Positions 13,632-21,248 of a stretch of DNA of 64,000 nucleotides are shown in pieces. Each line of letters opens with the position of its first letter. Positions within the stretch are counted from its first letter, which is position 1. A program made the translations under genes and the position numbers. The notes under the pieces are model-generated. The model saw nothing but the letters and a program-made list of their open reading frames with translations. It was not told the DNA's origin and did no database searches. The stretch covers positions 1,550,001-1,614,000 of the forward strand of contig NZ_FSRT01000001.1 in NCBI RefSeq assembly GCF_900143015.1, in the 5' to 3' direction. Origin of the DNA: Fibrobacter sp. UWB11 (GTDB lineage: Bacteria > Fibrobacterota > Fibrobacteria > Fibrobacterales > Fibrobacteraceae).

Positions 13632-14189
13632 ATGAAAATCGAAAAGAAGAAGGTTACCGGAAATTCACGTCTGTCTAGTGCCACTAAGGTTGGTGTTGCC
13701 TCAGTGCTTGGCATGTCCACCGTTTTTATGAGCGGATGTTTAAGCGATGCTGAAAGTGGTCAAGTTATGGGCCCAGCAAACGAGCCGAATAGCAGCGACG
13801 CCTCCCAAACTCCGGAAATACAGTCCAGTTCCTCAGTAGCCGATATTCCACTGAGCCACGAACGCCTTAGCAGCGAAGCCATCGAAGTGCTTTCTTCTTC
13901 GTCTGTACAAACGCCGAGCAGTTCTCCTGTTGCGCCAATTCAAAGCAGTTCGTCAGAAGAAATCGTCAGCAGCTCATCCGAAAGTTCCAGCAGCACATTT
14001 GTCGAAAAGCCCCGCAGTTCGTCGAGCGTCAAGGAAGAATCTAGCAGTTCCACAGAAGTTGTTCCACCATGGCCAAGAGATTGCAACAAAATTGATTCCA
14101 TGGGCGTCAACGTCATTATGTGCCATGACGACGATGATTTTCCGCTAGTGAGCATGGTTTCGACATACGAGATGTTCGACAACGTTTAA
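13632..14189 (+). CDS. Serine-rich lipoprotein, candidate radical SAM substrate (1 of 2)
   Basis: The protein has 185 residues. The N-terminus MKIEKKKVTGNSRLSSATK is unusually long and basic before the hydrophobic core, which ends in lipobox MSGC (Cys36). Residues 64-141 are a poly-Ser linker with SSS(S) blocks and the segment HERLSSEAIEVLSS. The C-terminal tail (about 145-185) has Cys151 and Cys164, an HDDDD run and SMVSTYEMFDNV at the very end. The next gene repeats the same plan: MKIEKKKV start, ERLSSEAIE segment, two tail cysteines and a final SMV(S/T)T(Y/F)E. Two tandem small proteins next to a radical SAM/SPASM enzyme suggest a modified substrate anchored at the membrane and displayed on a flexible stalk. 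That function is inference. Confidence 0.8.
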   Translation: MKIEKKKVTGNSRLSSATKVGVASVLGMSTVFMSGCLSDAESGQVMGPANEPNSSDASQTPEIQSSSSVADIPLSHERLSSEAIEVLSSSSVQTPSSSPVAPIQSSSSEEIVSSSSESSSSTFVEKPRSSSSVKEESSSSTEVVPPWPRDCNKIDSMGVNVIMCHDDDDFPLVSMVSTYEMFDNV

Positions 14190-14213
14190 AAATCGCTATT
14201 GCTAAGAGTAACC

Positions 14214-14852
14214 ATGAAAATCGAGAAGAAAAAAGTCGTCAAGAGCTCAAAATTGAGCAATTTTGCCAAAAGTGCCGTCGCAACGGCCCTTGGAATTGCA
14301 GCATCCTTCGGAACGACCGCCTGCGACGACAGCATTTCTGCAACAGGCAGCGCCAATAAAACGCAAGAACCAGAACCGACATGCGGTGAAGTCGCATGCG
14401 GAGATCAATTCAGCAGTTCAAGCTATACCGACATTCCTTCTAGCGGAGAGCGCCTCAGCAGCGAAGCCATCGAAGCACTTTCATCCGCAAAACAACCGAG
14501 CAGTTCTTCAATAGACACCCCGATTTCCTCGGGAGTACCTCATATTTCCTCACCTTCATCCTCTGAACGTCTCAGCAGTTCTTCCGTCGAAAAACCAAGC
14601 AGTTCGTCTTACGAGCCTATTATAGAAGCTGGCGTTCTCCCACCGTACGAAGAATCATCTTCAAGCGAAACGCCATCAAGCTCGTCCGAGGAAAAGTCTA
14701 GTAGCAGCGAAGCCGATATCCCAGATCCACGGATTATACCTGTCATAGACACGCTCAGCCCCCGCATCCACCTCTGCGAAGACCCAAACAATCCAGGTTG
14801 CCTTATAGAAAGCATGGTGACGACATTCGAGCAGGACGACGTTCAAGCATGA
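14214..14852 (+). CDS. Serine-rich lipoprotein, candidate radical SAM substrate (2 of 2)
   Basis: The protein has 212 residues. The ATG at 14214 gives MKIEKKKVV, matching its paralog; a TTG five codons upstream was rejected. The lipobox is GTTAC (Cys37). A short region with Cys57 and Cys62 follows, then a poly-Ser linker (about 67-165) with GERLSSEAIEALSS. The tail PDPRIIPVIDTLSPR has Cys188 and Cys196 and ends SMVTTFEQDDVQA. Its TGA stop overlaps the ATG of the radical SAM gene (ATGA), so the two are translationally coupled. It is clearly paralogous to the upstream gene through N-terminus, linker segment and C-terminal motif, although the linkers have diverged. Confidence 0.8.
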   Translation: MKIEKKKVVKSSKLSNFAKSAVATALGIAASFGTTACDDSISATGSANKTQEPEPTCGEVACGDQFSSSSYTDIPSSGERLSSEAIEALSSAKQPSSSSIDTPISSGVPHISSPSSSERLSSSSVEKPSSSSYEPIIEAGVLPPYEESSSSETPSSSSEEKSSSSEADIPDPRIIPVIDTLSPRIHLCEDPNNPGCLIESMVTTFEQDDVQA

Positions 14853-15937
14853 ATTTAGTCCTTTGCCTTACAGAACAATGTAATTTACGTTGTATCTACT
14901 GCTATTACAAGGAATCGCAAGCGGACCGCAAGACGGTCATGGACGATGCGACACTTGAACAGGCAATCCGCATCGGACTGGAACGCACGATTTTCTTTAA
15001 GCAGTCGTATTTCAACATCACGTTTTTCGGTGGCGAACCACTTTTACGCAGGGACGCCATTTACAAAGGTGTCGAATTCGCTAAGGCAATTGTCGATGAT
15101 GCAATGGATAACGGCAGAATCGCACGCAATTTTAAATTGCAATTTGCGGTCAACACGAACGGCACGCTGTTCGACGATGAATTTTTCGATTTTTGTGAAA
15201 AAGAACATTTTCGCATCTTCCTATCGCTAGACGGACCGGAACACCACCACGATATTGCACGCCGCACAGTCAACAATACGGGAAGTTTCAAAGCAATAGA
15301 AAAGCACATTCCTCGATTTGCAAAACTCGGCGCTGTCGCATTAAGCACAGTCACGCGAGCGCACGTCAACACACTTTTCGAAAGCGTCAAGTGGCTGCAC
15401 GAGCAAGGATTCCAAAGCCTTACTACAAGCGTTGATTTCGATGGGAAATGGACTGGCGAAGATTTTGACAAACTCGCTTTGCAATACAAAAAAATGGCGG
15501 ACTACTGGAAAGCATGCCGTGAAAAAGGCGACAAATTTTTCCTCGGCACAATACACGACAAGATAAAAATTGCACTTATCAATTCGCGATACAGACTTTA
15601 TTCGTGCCATGTGTACAATGGAGCCATCGGTGTCGCGACAAACGGAAATATGTTCCCTTGCACACGGTTCATCACATCAAACCCAAACACCAACTATGTG
15701 CAGGGGAACGTTTTCACAGGTTTTAATGAAGCCGCCTGCGAAGAAATCCGGAACTTCTTAGACAACGACAAAAAAGAATGTGAAGGATGCGATATCCGCT
15801 ACCGCTGTTGCGCGCATGAATGCGCCTGCACAAGCTATTACACAACGGGGACAATAGAAGGAGTGTCGCCCGAAGTCTGCACGCACGAAAGAATGCTCGC
15901 AGAAATATGTGATACGTTGTTAGAAAAAATTGCTTAG
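14849..15937 (+). CDS. Radical SAM/SPASM-type protein, putative peptide/lipoprotein maturase
   Basis: The protein has 362 residues. The ATG at 14849 overlaps the previous stop and puts the 4Fe-4S motif CNLRCIYC (Cys11, Cys15, Cys18) right at the N-terminus, as normal. TFFGGEPLL is the GGEP SAM-binding motif. AVNTNGTL and FLSLDGPEHHHD are further barrel motifs. The C-terminal third has SPASM-like auxiliary cluster cysteines: YSCHVYNGAIGVATNGNMFPC, then CEGCDIRYRCC, HECAC and a late Cys. Such enzymes modify ribosomally made peptides (thioether, C-C or epimerised links) or activate sulfatases as anSMEs. Coupling to two small lipoproteins, and no sulfatase here, favours a maturase. The exact reaction is unknown. 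Confidence 0.88.
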   Translation: MNLVLCLTEQCNLRCIYCYYKESQADRKTVMDDATLEQAIRIGLERTIFFKQSYFNITFFGGEPLLRRDAIYKGVEFAKAIVDDAMDNGRIARNFKLQFAVNTNGTLFDDEFFDFCEKEHFRIFLSLDGPEHHHDIARRTVNNTGSFKAIEKHIPRFAKLGAVALSTVTRAHVNTLFESVKWLHEQGFQSLTTSVDFDGKWTGEDFDKLALQYKKMADYWKACREKGDKFFLGTIHDKIKIALINSRYRLYSCHVYNGAIGVATNGNMFPCTRFITSNPNTNYVQGNVFTGFNEAACEEIRNFLDNDKKECEGCDIRYRCCAHECACTSYYTTGTIEGVSPEVCTHERMLAEICDTLLEKIA

Positions 15938-16084: not shown

Positions 16085-16870
16085 ATGAAAACCTGGTCTT
16101 TGATTTTATTGCTATGTATTTCGGCTTTCTGCGCCATACCAAACGGAACGATTCCGGACAACGGAAGCGAAATTCACGATACCGTTTACGTGGAGCAAAT
16201 CATTCGCGATACCGTTTATATTCCTATAAAATCAAGAACAGACACCATCTACTATACCAAAAACACATGTTGCGCCCCAACTAAAGAAAATCCACTCGGA
16301 TTGGACACTACAAAATACCTCCGCAACGACACAAACTACACCCATCATCTCATTTATTTGCACTTCGATCTCATTTCAATCCCGTGGCTCATAGACACTT
16401 CATTTACTTCGGTAGGTGGAAATATCGAATTTTCGACAAGCCGCAAAAACTCGGCCATATTAAATTTCCGCTACAGCAAAATGTCACTTAACAACTCCAT
16501 ATACGAAGGCAATATTTCGCAAAAAGACATTGGCTTAGGCTACCGCCATTACTTTAGACCCTCAAAATACAGCTTTTATTTCGATGTAGGTGGAAACTGG
16601 CTTATACGCAAATACGACTATATAAACACTTGGGACGACAAACCCTATTTGCACAACGACAGGCCACATTCTCGACACGATACAGCAACATTATTCGCGC
16701 CATACTTGCATGCAGGCCACGCATTTAGAGGGGAACGAGCCACATTCGGAATTGAATACGGAATCTCGTATGGGGCATCCGACAAGGACTTGCTCCAAAA
16801 AGAAATCTCCTACATTTCAGCAGGCGTCCAACTTGATTTGAGATTGAATATTGGCGTGGGGATTTTCTAA
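16085..16870 (+). CDS. Exported barrel-like protein with DT(V/I)Y repeats (1 of 3)
   Basis: The protein has 261 residues. A signal peptide MKTWSLILLLCISAFC is followed by a periodic segment (HDTVYVEQ, RDTVYIPI, TDTIYYTK), then a Cys-Cys pair (TCCAP), then a strand-rich region with aromatic alternation (YRHYFRPSKYSFYFDVGGNW) ending VQLDLRLNIGVGIF, typical of outer-membrane barrels. The TAA stop overlaps the next ATG by one base (TAATG). No named family is recognised. Position after the radical SAM/lipoprotein unit hints at a surface-related function, but a link is not shown. Confidence 0.7.
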   Translation: MKTWSLILLLCISAFCAIPNGTIPDNGSEIHDTVYVEQIIRDTVYIPIKSRTDTIYYTKNTCCAPTKENPLGLDTTKYLRNDTNYTHHLIYLHFDLISIPWLIDTSFTSVGGNIEFSTSRKNSAILNFRYSKMSLNNSIYEGNISQKDIGLGYRHYFRPSKYSFYFDVGGNWLIRKYDYINTWDDKPYLHNDRPHSRHDTATLFAPYLHAGHAFRGERATFGIEYGISYGASDKDLLQKEISYISAGVQLDLRLNIGVGIF

Positions 16871-17742
16871 TGAAACAATTTAAAAATATCAGATGGATTT
16901 TCGTCGCGATTTTGGCGTTCATGGCAAGTCCGACACTTGCTGTAACAGATACAATCTACGTCCAAAAGAGAATCACCGACACGCTTTACGTAGCCTCCCC
17001 ACCGGATACGGTCTACATTCAAGAATCGGCATCTCAGCAGCCCCAAGAGCAAGCAACACTCACACAACAGAAAAATGAATATCTTCTGGATTACAATACG
17101 GATACAATCGCGCCGGGAAGAAAATTCTATATCAACATCATAAGCGGATTTAGCCTTTTTTCAATATGGGGCGGCGCACCCTTGTTTGACCTGAGTTGGG
17201 AAATCGAAAACAAACATCGAGGATCCACCATTTTTAACATTTCCACAATCATGCTCTTTGGAGACCACTCCATTAAAATCAGTAGTGATGATGAAAAAAC
17301 ATGGGAAGGATTCAGGAGTATTATAAGCCCGGGTATTGGATACAGACAATACCTGCTCACATTCTCTATCGACAAAACTAATCCAGAAAAACTCGAAGTT
17401 ATACATAGAAACACACCTCTCAACAGTTCTTCTTTTTATATTCAAGCCTTAGGAAACCCAACTTTCAAAATTGCTTACGACAAGAACCTCAAACGCGATA
17501 AGAACATGAAAGGCAGTTTTGATGCTGGTTTTTCGACAAAAGCCACACTGGGATACATAAGAAATATGGGAAATATGCTATGGGATTTTGGTATAACATT
17601 CGGTTACCAATACTGGAGCGACAAAGCCCGTCAATATCTCAATTGGTGCGAATACAAGAACGAAGGCTTCAGCTATCACTTTCTTAACGGGATGACTGGC
17701 AAAGGTTTATTCTTCGGCACCGAATTTAACATAGGATTCTAA
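16870..17742 (+). CDS. Exported barrel-like protein with DT(V/I)Y repeats (2 of 3)
   Basis: The protein has 290 residues. The signal peptide ends about ...FMASPTLA. The periodic segment is TDTIYVQK, TDTLYVAS, PDTVYIQE, as in the gene before. A Gln-rich spacer and a strand-rich domain follow, closing with GLFFGTEFNIGF (a terminal aromatic as in outer-membrane barrels). The start overlaps the upstream stop, and the next gene begins one base after its stop, so all three form a tight operon. Family unknown. Confidence 0.7.
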   Translation: MKQFKNIRWIFVAILAFMASPTLAVTDTIYVQKRITDTLYVASPPDTVYIQESASQQPQEQATLTQQKNEYLLDYNTDTIAPGRKFYINIISGFSLFSIWGGAPLFDLSWEIENKHRGSTIFNISTIMLFGDHSIKISSDDEKTWEGFRSIISPGIGYRQYLLTFSIDKTNPEKLEVIHRNTPLNSSSFYIQALGNPTFKIAYDKNLKRDKNMKGSFDAGFSTKATLGYIRNMGNMLWDFGITFGYQYWSDKARQYLNWCEYKNEGFSYHFLNGMTGKGLFFGTEFNIGF

Positions 17743-17743
17743 T

Positions 17744-18553
17744 ATGCGATACTTACTTGTTATTCTTTTGTTCTGCGTTGCAAGTGCATTTTCTCAAGAA
17801 CAAATCGTTGACACCATTTACACAGATACACATAAAGTCACATACATTGACAACACACTCAACAATACATTTCAAAATTCAAAGTCTGATGCCTCAGCCG
17901 CACCTGAAGATACTGTTGACTTAGTAGGATTGAGCGCAGTTCCAAATAATTATCATCGAATATCACTCTTTTTGACAGCACAGAGCTTGAGTTTTTCTTT
18001 GGGTTACGAATATTTGTTCAGCGATTTTTGGAGTGCTAGACTACGATTCGGATATATCGGATACAATAAGACAGACATCAAAAAACATACTGATACAGAA
18101 GGAACCATGGACATTTTCACAGCACCCCTAACCGTGAAATGGTATTGGGCACGTCGCAACATGGGAACTTATCAATACGTAGACGCCTTAGGGAATAACC
18201 ACAAAAAAAGCCAAAGCCAAGCAGAAGGTTTTATTCATCTCCAAGCCGTTCCGACACTTTACAACATTGACATTCATCGCGACTCCAATTCCGTCTCCAA
18301 CGGAATGCATTTAAAAGAAAAAGAATTAGCGCTTTATTTAACTGCCGGTTTCGGTTTCAACTTATGCTATGAGAGATTTATCCTCACAACGGAACTAAAC
18401 TTGGGAACATTCGTGAAATCTCCCAAATTCCAAAAGGGTACCAACGTACATCATACTACTTACGAGATTTACGTGGATAACAACAATTCAGGCACTCATC
18501 TTTTAGAAAAGACGGTTCTCGAATCCATCATTGCTATCGGCTGGATGTTCTAA
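17744..18553 (+). CDS. Exported barrel-like protein with DT(V/I)Y repeats (3 of 3)
   Basis: The protein has 269 residues. The signal peptide MRYLLVILLFCVASAFS is probably cut before Gln-Glu-Gln. The repeat segment VDTIYTDTHKVTYIDNT is shorter than in its two neighbours. The rest is strand-rich (SLSFSLGYEYLFSDFW, RLRFGYIGYN) and ends IIAIGWMF. An N-terminal Gln after cleavage could become pyroglutamate. Its end overlaps the convergent minus-strand gene by four bases. Confidence 0.7.
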   Translation: MRYLLVILLFCVASAFSQEQIVDTIYTDTHKVTYIDNTLNNTFQNSKSDASAAPEDTVDLVGLSAVPNNYHRISLFLTAQSLSFSLGYEYLFSDFWSARLRFGYIGYNKTDIKKHTDTEGTMDIFTAPLTVKWYWARRNMGTYQYVDALGNNHKKSQSQAEGFIHLQAVPTLYNIDIHRDSNSVSNGMHLKEKELALYLTAGFGFNLCYERFILTTELNLGTFVKSPKFQKGTNVHHTTYEIYVDNNNSGTHLLEKTVLESIIAIGWMF

Positions 18554-19812: not shown

Positions 19813-19862
19813 CGAATCAAGAAAGACATCTATTCATCCTATTAGAACAGACTCTATTTTTG

Positions 19863-19868
19863 TATATT
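19863..19868 (+). promoter_or_regulatory. Predicted -10 box (TATATT), leaderless arrangement
   Basis: CTATTTTTGTATATTC, then the ATG at 19875, six bases after the box. The next gene has nearly the same T-rich string (CTCTTTTTGTATATTC at 21275-21291). Confidence 0.5.
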
Positions 19869-19874
19869 CCGCTT

Positions 19875-21248
19875 ATGTTTCGCAGTTGGAAAAATAAAAA
19901 GTTCTGGATTTACATTGCCGCCACATCCATCGCCTTTTTGTCGCTTATAATCGTTACAGATTTGTCAAGCATAAAAAGATTCAACCTCAATCGAGACTCA
20001 TTAAACGCCGAAACTTGGCTCGAAGTTGAAAAGAACGAGACTATCAAAATTTGCATGGACTCAAAAGTTCGCGGATGGGAAACTACGCTGGATACTAAAA
20101 TTCTTAATGATTCGTGCTTAAAAGTTCAAGTACCAACGCTTATTGGACTCTCCCCCATCATGGTGAAATTTTCCGACTCTGACAGTTCATATAAAATCAA
20201 TCTTGCAGTCGGAATGAAGTATCTTGATTTCAAAAAAGAAGAAGCTTTATATGGCAATGACCTTCGTCAAATGCGACCTCATGAAAAGAAGATTGTGTCC
20301 GTTTCAGGAACTTATCTGGTAGATGAATACCCCGTGACTAATTGCGAAATCACTCAGCAAATGTGGGATGAGATCCCCTTGAATCCAAAGGATTATCAAA
20401 TAGAAAAAGAATGGGCGCAAAGAAAAAAGTCTAGCATACGTAACGAAAAATGCGACACCCATGACTCTGCTGCAAATATGATTTCTTTGTATATGGCAAT
20501 GAAGTACGCCAATGCGCGCAGCATTCGAGAAGGATTGAAGCCATATTATCGTTTCTCAGCAACTAAAGAAAAGCACATACATATCATTACGCCTTATCAC
20601 AAACAGCGTAAAGACATTACAGTCAAACCGAGATACCAATACATTGAAATTTTTTATAAATTCACAGGATACGAGGAACCGACACATCAATATGTTATAG
20701 CTCAATACGATTTCACAAATCATGAAGATTCAACAATTCTTGTGATGGTAGATTCTACATCAGATGGTTATCGGCTGCCATATTATGACGAATGGATGAT
20801 GCTTGCTCGCGGCGGAGAAAAAGAGGCTATGACGCCTTGGTGCAATAATTCCGCTAAAATTAAAGACGTTTCAAAATATGCAAGATTTGCCAAATATAAG
20901 GATGAAGTCAAATCAGAACCTGTAGGCCAGCTACAACCTAATGAATATGGTTTATACGACATGTTAGGTTTAGTAGAAGAACATGTTCTTTTAGAAGAGC
21001 ACAATTGGCCAAGACCTATGGTAGATCTAATTTATACCTTAATCCCTTTTAGCCAAGAAAAAGAATCTTTCAAGTGCTATGATGAGGACTGTCCTTCCTG
21101 TTTAAAAGGTGGTGGACTTTTAAGCGATTGGAAAAAAATCAGCTACAGTTATTCAGCCATTGACTATTATAATGGTTACTCCGGCGGTTTCCGCCTAATC
21201 CGCAACATTGGCAACAACGCCAAATGGACCGAAGTAAAATCTAAATGA
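19875..21248 (+). CDS. SUMF1/FGE-like exported protein (1 of 3)
   Basis: The protein has 457 residues. The ATG at 19875 (MFRSWKNKKFWIY) was preferred to a TTG five codons earlier. The N-terminus is a membrane anchor or uncleaved signal (about 12-30). A domain of unknown type (about 40-140, ETWLEVEKNETIKIC) is shared with the next two genes. The C-terminal half resembles formylglycine-generating-enzyme/SUMF1 folds: YLVDEYPVTNCE, SDGYRLPYYDEWMMLARGG, YGLYDMLGLVEEHVL, GGFRLIRNIG. The catalytic Cys region of true FGE (CRSA.R) is not seen, so it is probably a non-catalytic relative, as in GldK/GldJ-type proteins. A Cys pair (CPSC) precedes the Gly-rich end. Confidence 0.75.
   Translation: MFRSWKNKKFWIYIAATSIAFLSLIIVTDLSSIKRFNLNRDSLNAETWLEVEKNETIKICMDSKVRGWETTLDTKILNDSCLKVQVPTLIGLSPIMVKFSDSDSSYKINLAVGMKYLDFKKEEALYGNDLRQMRPHEKKIVSVSGTYLVDEYPVTNCEITQQMWDEIPLNPKDYQIEKEWAQRKKSSIRNEKCDTHDSAANMISLYMAMKYANARSIREGLKPYYRFSATKEKHIHIITPYHKQRKDITVKPRYQYIEIFYKFTGYEEPTHQYVIAQYDFTNHEDSTILVMVDSTSDGYRLPYYDEWMMLARGGEKEAMTPWCNNSAKIKDVSKYARFAKYKDEVKSEPVGQLQPNEYGLYDMLGLVEEHVLLEEHNWPRPMVDLIYTLIPFSQEKESFKCYDEDCPSCLKGGGLLSDWKKISYSYSAIDYYNGYSGGFRLIRNIGNNAKWTEVKSK

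Follow-up and report, generated by a model that had tools for sequence, protein, structure and literature searches.

A radical SAM/SPASM enzyme of Fibrobacter and the serine-stalk lipoproteins that are its putative substrates

The window analyzed here, a 64-kb stretch of a Fibrobacter genome (G000 C1:1550001-1614000), contains a gene set in which a PapB/CteB-like maturase probably modifies two lipoproteins encoded just before it. We give this reading, which is predicted from sequence and treats the three genes together as a small operon, a probability of roughly 0.7. The sequence-only reading of this DNA had described two tandem paralogous lipoproteins and a radical SAM enzyme with an ATGA overlap, and the open reading frames and their translations confirm this arrangement, with the ATGA at 14849-14852 providing both the stop of lipoprotein 2 and the start of the enzyme. 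The genes are as follows.

13632-14189, plus strand: lipoprotein 1, putative substrate, 185 aa (open reading frame and translation; orthologs at other Fibrobacter loci)
14214-14852, plus strand: lipoprotein 2, putative substrate, 212 aa (open reading frame and translation; ATGA overlap with the enzyme gene)
14849-15937, plus strand: putative radical SAM/SPASM peptide maturase, PapB/CteB-like, 362 aa (family scores, Cys pattern, AlphaFold model)

The enzyme harbors a CX3CX2C motif at residues 11-18 (CNLRCIYC), GGEP at 61-64, and SPASM-type cysteines at positions 253, 271, 311, 314, 320, 325, 327, and 344. All of these elements, which had been picked out from the letters, are invariant among 29 aligned relatives. 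Pfam Radical_SAM matches at 58 bits, above its cut-off, while Pfam SPASM scores 17.2 bits, under its cut-off of 21.5; the SPASM assignment is therefore based on the Cys pattern and on alignments with CteB and anSME. The nearest named family in NCBIfam is that of the PapB ranthipeptide maturases (NF047865), which scores 206.5 bits against a cut-off of 340, with enzyme residues 3-336 aligning full-length to model positions 5-327 of 330; each of the 29 aligned sequences matches this model (best E 5.8e-67). Scores for CteB (TIGR03974; 122.6 bits, cut-off 425), anSME (93, cut-off 349), and GrrM/OscB-type enzymes (73 bits, cut-off 310) are lower, and the remaining top family matches are mostly peptide or protein maturases. 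Judged by its CX3CX2C core and SPASM Cys pattern, the enzyme is a member of the general class of SPASM radical SAM peptide maturases. The gene set agrees with the general picture of a SPASM-modified RiPP system, and the enzyme lies outside PapB, CteB, and anSME by their cut-offs.

The AlphaFold model of the enzyme (pLDDT 86.8, pTM 0.87) has CteB as its best PDB fold match (TM 0.76 on query), followed by anSMEcpe and ChlB, making CteB (PDB 5wgg/5why) the closest solved structure by both sequence and fold. The two enzymes agree in the Cys pattern of their SPASM regions. However, CteB contains ~90 more residues ahead of its radical SAM core, described in the literature as an RRE, and the neighbors of the present enzyme are lipoproteins, with no SCIFF peptide. 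No N-terminal RRE is present in the enzyme, as its first Cys comes after only 10 residues (residue 11 of 362) and the model reveals no extra N-terminal domain; leader recognition would thus need another site. The enzyme also has no signal peptide.

The two lipoproteins were confirmed as paralogs (BLASTP 46% across the N-terminal ~90 aa at E 3e-10), each with a lipobox-like sequence, FMSGC in lipoprotein 1 (Cys36) and GTTAC in lipoprotein 2 (Cys37). The lipoboxes proposed earlier, MSGC and TTAC, are therefore present; TTAC is weak, with Thr at −3, yet relatives show LSAC, LNAC, or MTAC at the equivalent position. Beyond what the sequence-only reading described, the two proteins have a conserved leader in common, an invariant C-terminal motif, and Gly-containing repeats in their stalks, and the enzyme has relatives with partners of other kinds. 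The features of the pair are given below.

13632-13739, plus strand: leader/signal peptide of lipoprotein 1, MKIEKKKV...LGMSTVFMSGC (family profile A2, E 5.4e-16)
13755-13766, plus strand: Gly motif SGQV of lipoprotein 1, possible target (motif class enriched in stalks relative to shuffles)
14121-14123, plus strand: pre-tail Cys of lipoprotein 1 (MCHDDDD)
14151-14186, plus strand: C-terminal motif SMVSTYEMFDNV of lipoprotein 1 (alignment of 60 relatives' tails; DNA pattern match)
14214-14324, plus strand: leader/signal peptide of lipoprotein 2, MKIEKKKV...FGTTAC (family profile A2, E 4.8e-15)
14529-14540, plus strand: Gly motif SGVP in the stalk of lipoprotein 2 (same enriched class)
14628-14639, plus strand: Gly motif AGVL (IIEAGVLPPYE) in the stalk of lipoprotein 2 (same enriched class)
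14811-14849, plus strand: C-terminal motif SMVTTFEQDDVQA of lipoprotein 2 (same alignment; DNA pattern match)

The tips of the two proteins are near-identical. Their stalks consist of 37.5% (lipoprotein 1) and 33.6% (lipoprotein 2) Ser, encoded by all six Ser codons, which rules out a recent simple repeat. A mid-stalk motif, IPxSxERLSSEAIEALS, is found in 11 of 60 lipoproteins, and its core in 15. Lipoprotein 1 had no Pfam match up to E 1 and its NCBIfam matches were weak and far under their cut-offs. No RiPP precursor family matched either lipoprotein, and the contrast that had been drawn with the usual short RiPP precursors is a fair one.

A search for relatives of the enzyme gave 52 locations spread over 29 of 61 near genomes, and members of the enzyme family occur in 47 of the 61 Fibrobacter genomes. 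The system, for which the sequence-only reading had proposed a search for three-gene clusters in Fibrobacterota, recurs beyond the window genome. Among 151 genomes drawn more widely, enzyme relatives were found in four genera, all belonging to the family of the window genus. The DNA around the relatives was fetched and the neighboring genes were read, revealing four clades that differ in their partners. Clade A contains 35 enzymes, including that of the window, and every one is preceded by one to four tandem lipoproteins whose C termini read SMV(T/S)T(F/Y)ExxD or nearly so; the substrates described earlier as paired are thus two here, and pairing is not a general feature. Clade B, three enzymes on the tree plus one more locus (G116), is accompanied by lipoproteins ending in SMxSxxGHIxxPL. 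The lipoproteins of clade C (10 enzymes) have the same leader type and no SM tail, and instead carry repeats such as PLAGDPI and TSGEVIPPE, with one shorter protein as the exception. The 15 clade-D enzymes have no lipoprotein, and a Lys/Ala-rich protein of 72-168 aa is encoded just downstream. On a tree of 63 enzymes the partner label changes five times, compared with 26.3 times in shuffles; two clade-A rows (L067 and L070) were labeled "none" by the gene filter, and both do have a lipoprotein with the clade-A tail. This match between enzyme sequence type and partner type across the family suggests chemical modification by a reaction not yet known.

The tail itself was searched as a degenerate DNA pattern in the 61 Fibrobacter genomes and compared with the enzyme positions there. 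Each of the 56 matches has a clade-A enzyme 19-2966 bp downstream of it. The pattern is present in 33 of the 34 genomes that encode a clade-A enzyme and in none of the 27 without (Fisher 1.8e-16, although related genomes are not independent events); the sole miss, G010, arises because its tail reads SMATTFE. Among the 24 genomes that were not used to define the motif, the tail occurs in 13/13 with the enzyme and 0/11 without, and a reversed-pattern control gave three matches. Synonymous codons vary across the matches, indicating that the motif is kept at the protein level, and the complete lack of tail matches away from clade-A enzymes rules out a general sorting signal. Because the genes lie in one operon and the genomes are related, this co-occurrence shows association and does not thereby establish catalysis. 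The earlier claim that the enzyme modifies the tails hence stands as an association, in which tail types track the enzyme tree and the tail never occurs without the enzyme.

A leader profile (A2) built from 17 leaders gave 59 matches in the 61 near genomes, about 50 of which, inspected by eye, lie beside family enzymes, with no match in near genomes that have no clade A, B, or C enzyme. The leader, thus rare and enzyme-linked, is not the signal peptide that lipoproteins of this genus ordinarily carry. Together these findings correspond to the general pattern of a RiPP system, an adjacent precursor with a conserved leader and a clade-matched core. In the window genome the profile has three significant places, two of them at this locus. 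The third belongs to a lone 114-aa lipoprotein (L141:5814-6158, minus strand; G000 C1 near 1309047) with no adjoining family enzyme, which contains PGPLGGIVRLP near its C terminus, similar to the clade-C repeats. By its sequence it may be a substrate encoded elsewhere and acted on in trans. Leader-bearing lipoproteins that lie away from any such enzyme, of which this is one, count against the maturase reading.

In the mechanism that we favor, the enzyme, which lacks a signal peptide and would carry Fe-S clusters, would work in the cytoplasm, before export. Recognition would involve both the C-terminal motif specific to the clade and the N-terminal leader (MKIEKKKV...LG...C), which is at the same time the signal peptide of the lipoprotein. 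The enzyme would install a radical modification in or next to the tail, at the Gly-[V/I/D]-[I/V/P] motifs in the stalk, or at both. The lipoprotein would then be exported and lipidated, with signal peptidase II removing the leader, and the Ser-rich stalk would carry the modified tip away from the membrane.

If this enzyme is PapB-like in its chemistry, the clade-A members could link a pre-tail Cys to a nearby Asp or Glu, producing a ranthipeptide-like ring on the tip. PapB is the nearest named family, in both cases the precursor gene adjoins the enzyme, and the clade-A tails contain Cys followed by acids: a Cys lies within 20 aa before SM in 60/60 tails, and an Asp or Glu within seven residues after a Cys in 53/60. 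PapB accepts Cys-Xn-Asp with n of 0-6 (PMC9413430). However, the putative substrates here are lipoproteins of 170-250 aa with Ser stalks, whereas PapA is a short Cys-rich peptide, and the repeated CX3D/E motifs expected of a PapB precursor are missing from the lipoproteins, which have a few pre-tail cysteines at variable spacing, with no conserved CX3D. The Cys positions, mostly even in number, fit disulfides as well; seven of the 60 clade-A tails have no nearby acid, and the PapB cut-off is missed. Moreover, Cys is absent from the clade-C tails, two of four clade-B tails, and 12/18 clade-D partners; most partners outside clade A have none. A common Cys-based chemistry is ruled out by the clade-C tails and most clade-D partners, and for the same reason a Cys-Asp/Glu thioether, possible in clade A, cannot be general. 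Overall, we regard the thioether variant as a doubtful candidate even for clade A.

No obvious target residue type is common to all of the partner proteins, which counts against the maturase reading; a Gly motif is a possible target. The pattern [ASTGP]G[VIDEQ][VILP] occurs in stalks more often than in shuffles in clade A (62 versus 14), clade C (51 versus 5), and the other genera (12 versus 1.7), and the fraction of Gly in a G[VIDEQ][VILP] context is 17.5% in clade A, 50% in clade C, and 13.5% in clade D, compared with 6.9% in neighboring genes. In the clade-D partners the lipoprotein-derived motif is modestly enriched (15 versus 8.0 in shuffles, with 13 of 1000 shuffles as high). All of these statistics are optimistic because the motif was picked after viewing the sequences, which are also related. 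The small proteins downstream of the clade-D enzymes (L083, L086, L092-L101, L103, L156, and L157) mostly have one or two motifs of Gly-Ile-Pro/Gly-Asp-Pro type, and from their sequences the clade-D enzymes and these proteins look like a separate, unnamed maturase-substrate pairing.

A tentative extension of the favored mechanism, which we would not press, is a system spanning the Fibrobacteraceae in which the lipoprotein signal peptide doubles as a radical SAM leader cut by signal peptidase II, leaving a lipid-anchored Ser stalk that is chemically altered at its tip, at repeated Gly sites, or at both. Related enzymes would have moved on to small Lys-rich proteins of the cytoplasm, which contain a similar Gly-Ile/Asp-Pro site, and the reaction would be new and independent of Cys.

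The lipoproteins might instead be partners of the enzyme, for example a sensor or binding protein, with the co-inherited enzyme acting on something else. Co-inheritance in one operon by itself produces much of the tail/enzyme co-occurrence, and ilvB and ilvN, which precede the three-gene set (Pfam), are like other neighbors also syntenic in relatives. In contrast, the partner type changes with the enzyme clade, each partner is small and of low complexity, two to four lipoprotein copies can stand beside one enzyme, and no other gene was found conserved beside all clades. This explanation is thus rather unlikely.

More improbable still is oxidation of formylglycine type, in which the invariant Ser of SM[V/P/A][T/S] would be oxidized as by anSME to place an aldehyde on the tip. 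The clade-B S-M-P-S/T does resemble the (C/S)-x-(P/A)-x-R sulfatase motif and anSMEcpe is among the nearest solved structures, but there is no Arg at +4, clade C has no such Ser motif, and the anSME model is missed by a wide score. In addition, the residue that follows the SPASM Cys is Asp in anSMEcpe (PCDFY), known as the catalytic Asp277, and Thr or Ser in the present family (PCTRF), Thr272 in the window enzyme. That the gene set is an ordinary anaerobic sulfatase maturase with unrelated Ser-rich lipoproteins nearby is scarcely credible: the SPASM architecture is common to both and the window genome does encode sulfatases elsewhere, but the catalytic Asp is replaced, the nearest named family is PapB, and the sulfatases listed in 37 genomes are all more than 10 kb from any family member, with clade D having the nearest (~14 kb), so that the consistent sulfatase neighbors named by the sequence-only reading as pointing to an anSME were not seen.

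Bacteroidetes have radical SAM/lipoprotein pairs (TIGR04133/TIGR04134), which are alike in placing a radical SAM enzyme beside a lipoprotein and belong to a different phylum. TIGR04133 is absent among the best 25 of 69 NCBIfam matches to the enzyme, and TIGR04134 matches neither lipoprotein in their complete NCBIfam match lists. The repeated short Gly motifs of the clade-C partners resemble the multi-core precursors of the GrrM/OscB systems, with a different repeat and here a lipoprotein scaffold. We found no description of the system in open-access papers. If the lipoproteins are modified, peptide maturation would reach beyond short secreted peptides and include anchored surface proteins, and the enzyme family would offer naturally matched, diverged substrates for studying site choice. 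To our knowledge, fiber attachment by Fibrobacter, which are important rumen cellulose degraders, is still poorly explained.

Several further observations concern the loci themselves. At two of the other-genus relatives (L152 and L154) the lipoproteins show a leader that has diverged and Ser runs interspersed with Gly repeats, and at two others (L151 and L153) no lipoprotein was evident. At L041 and L054, two clade-A enzymes stand in tandem, each with lipoproteins of its own. At L059, one upstream lipoprotein has no SMVTTFE tail and ends in SNVTTSNATKSLLK, perhaps through a frameshift. Promoter and terminator scans gave nothing above shuffles, and the downstream genes show no conservation with the enzyme across relatives. 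These include a run of three secreted-looking proteins (16085-18553; 261-290 aa, no Pfam match), which follow the enzyme in some relatives only. Approximately 4 kb downstream of the putative operon, 19860-21248 encodes an FGE-sulfatase (SUMF1-like) domain protein (Pfam PF03781, 61 bits).
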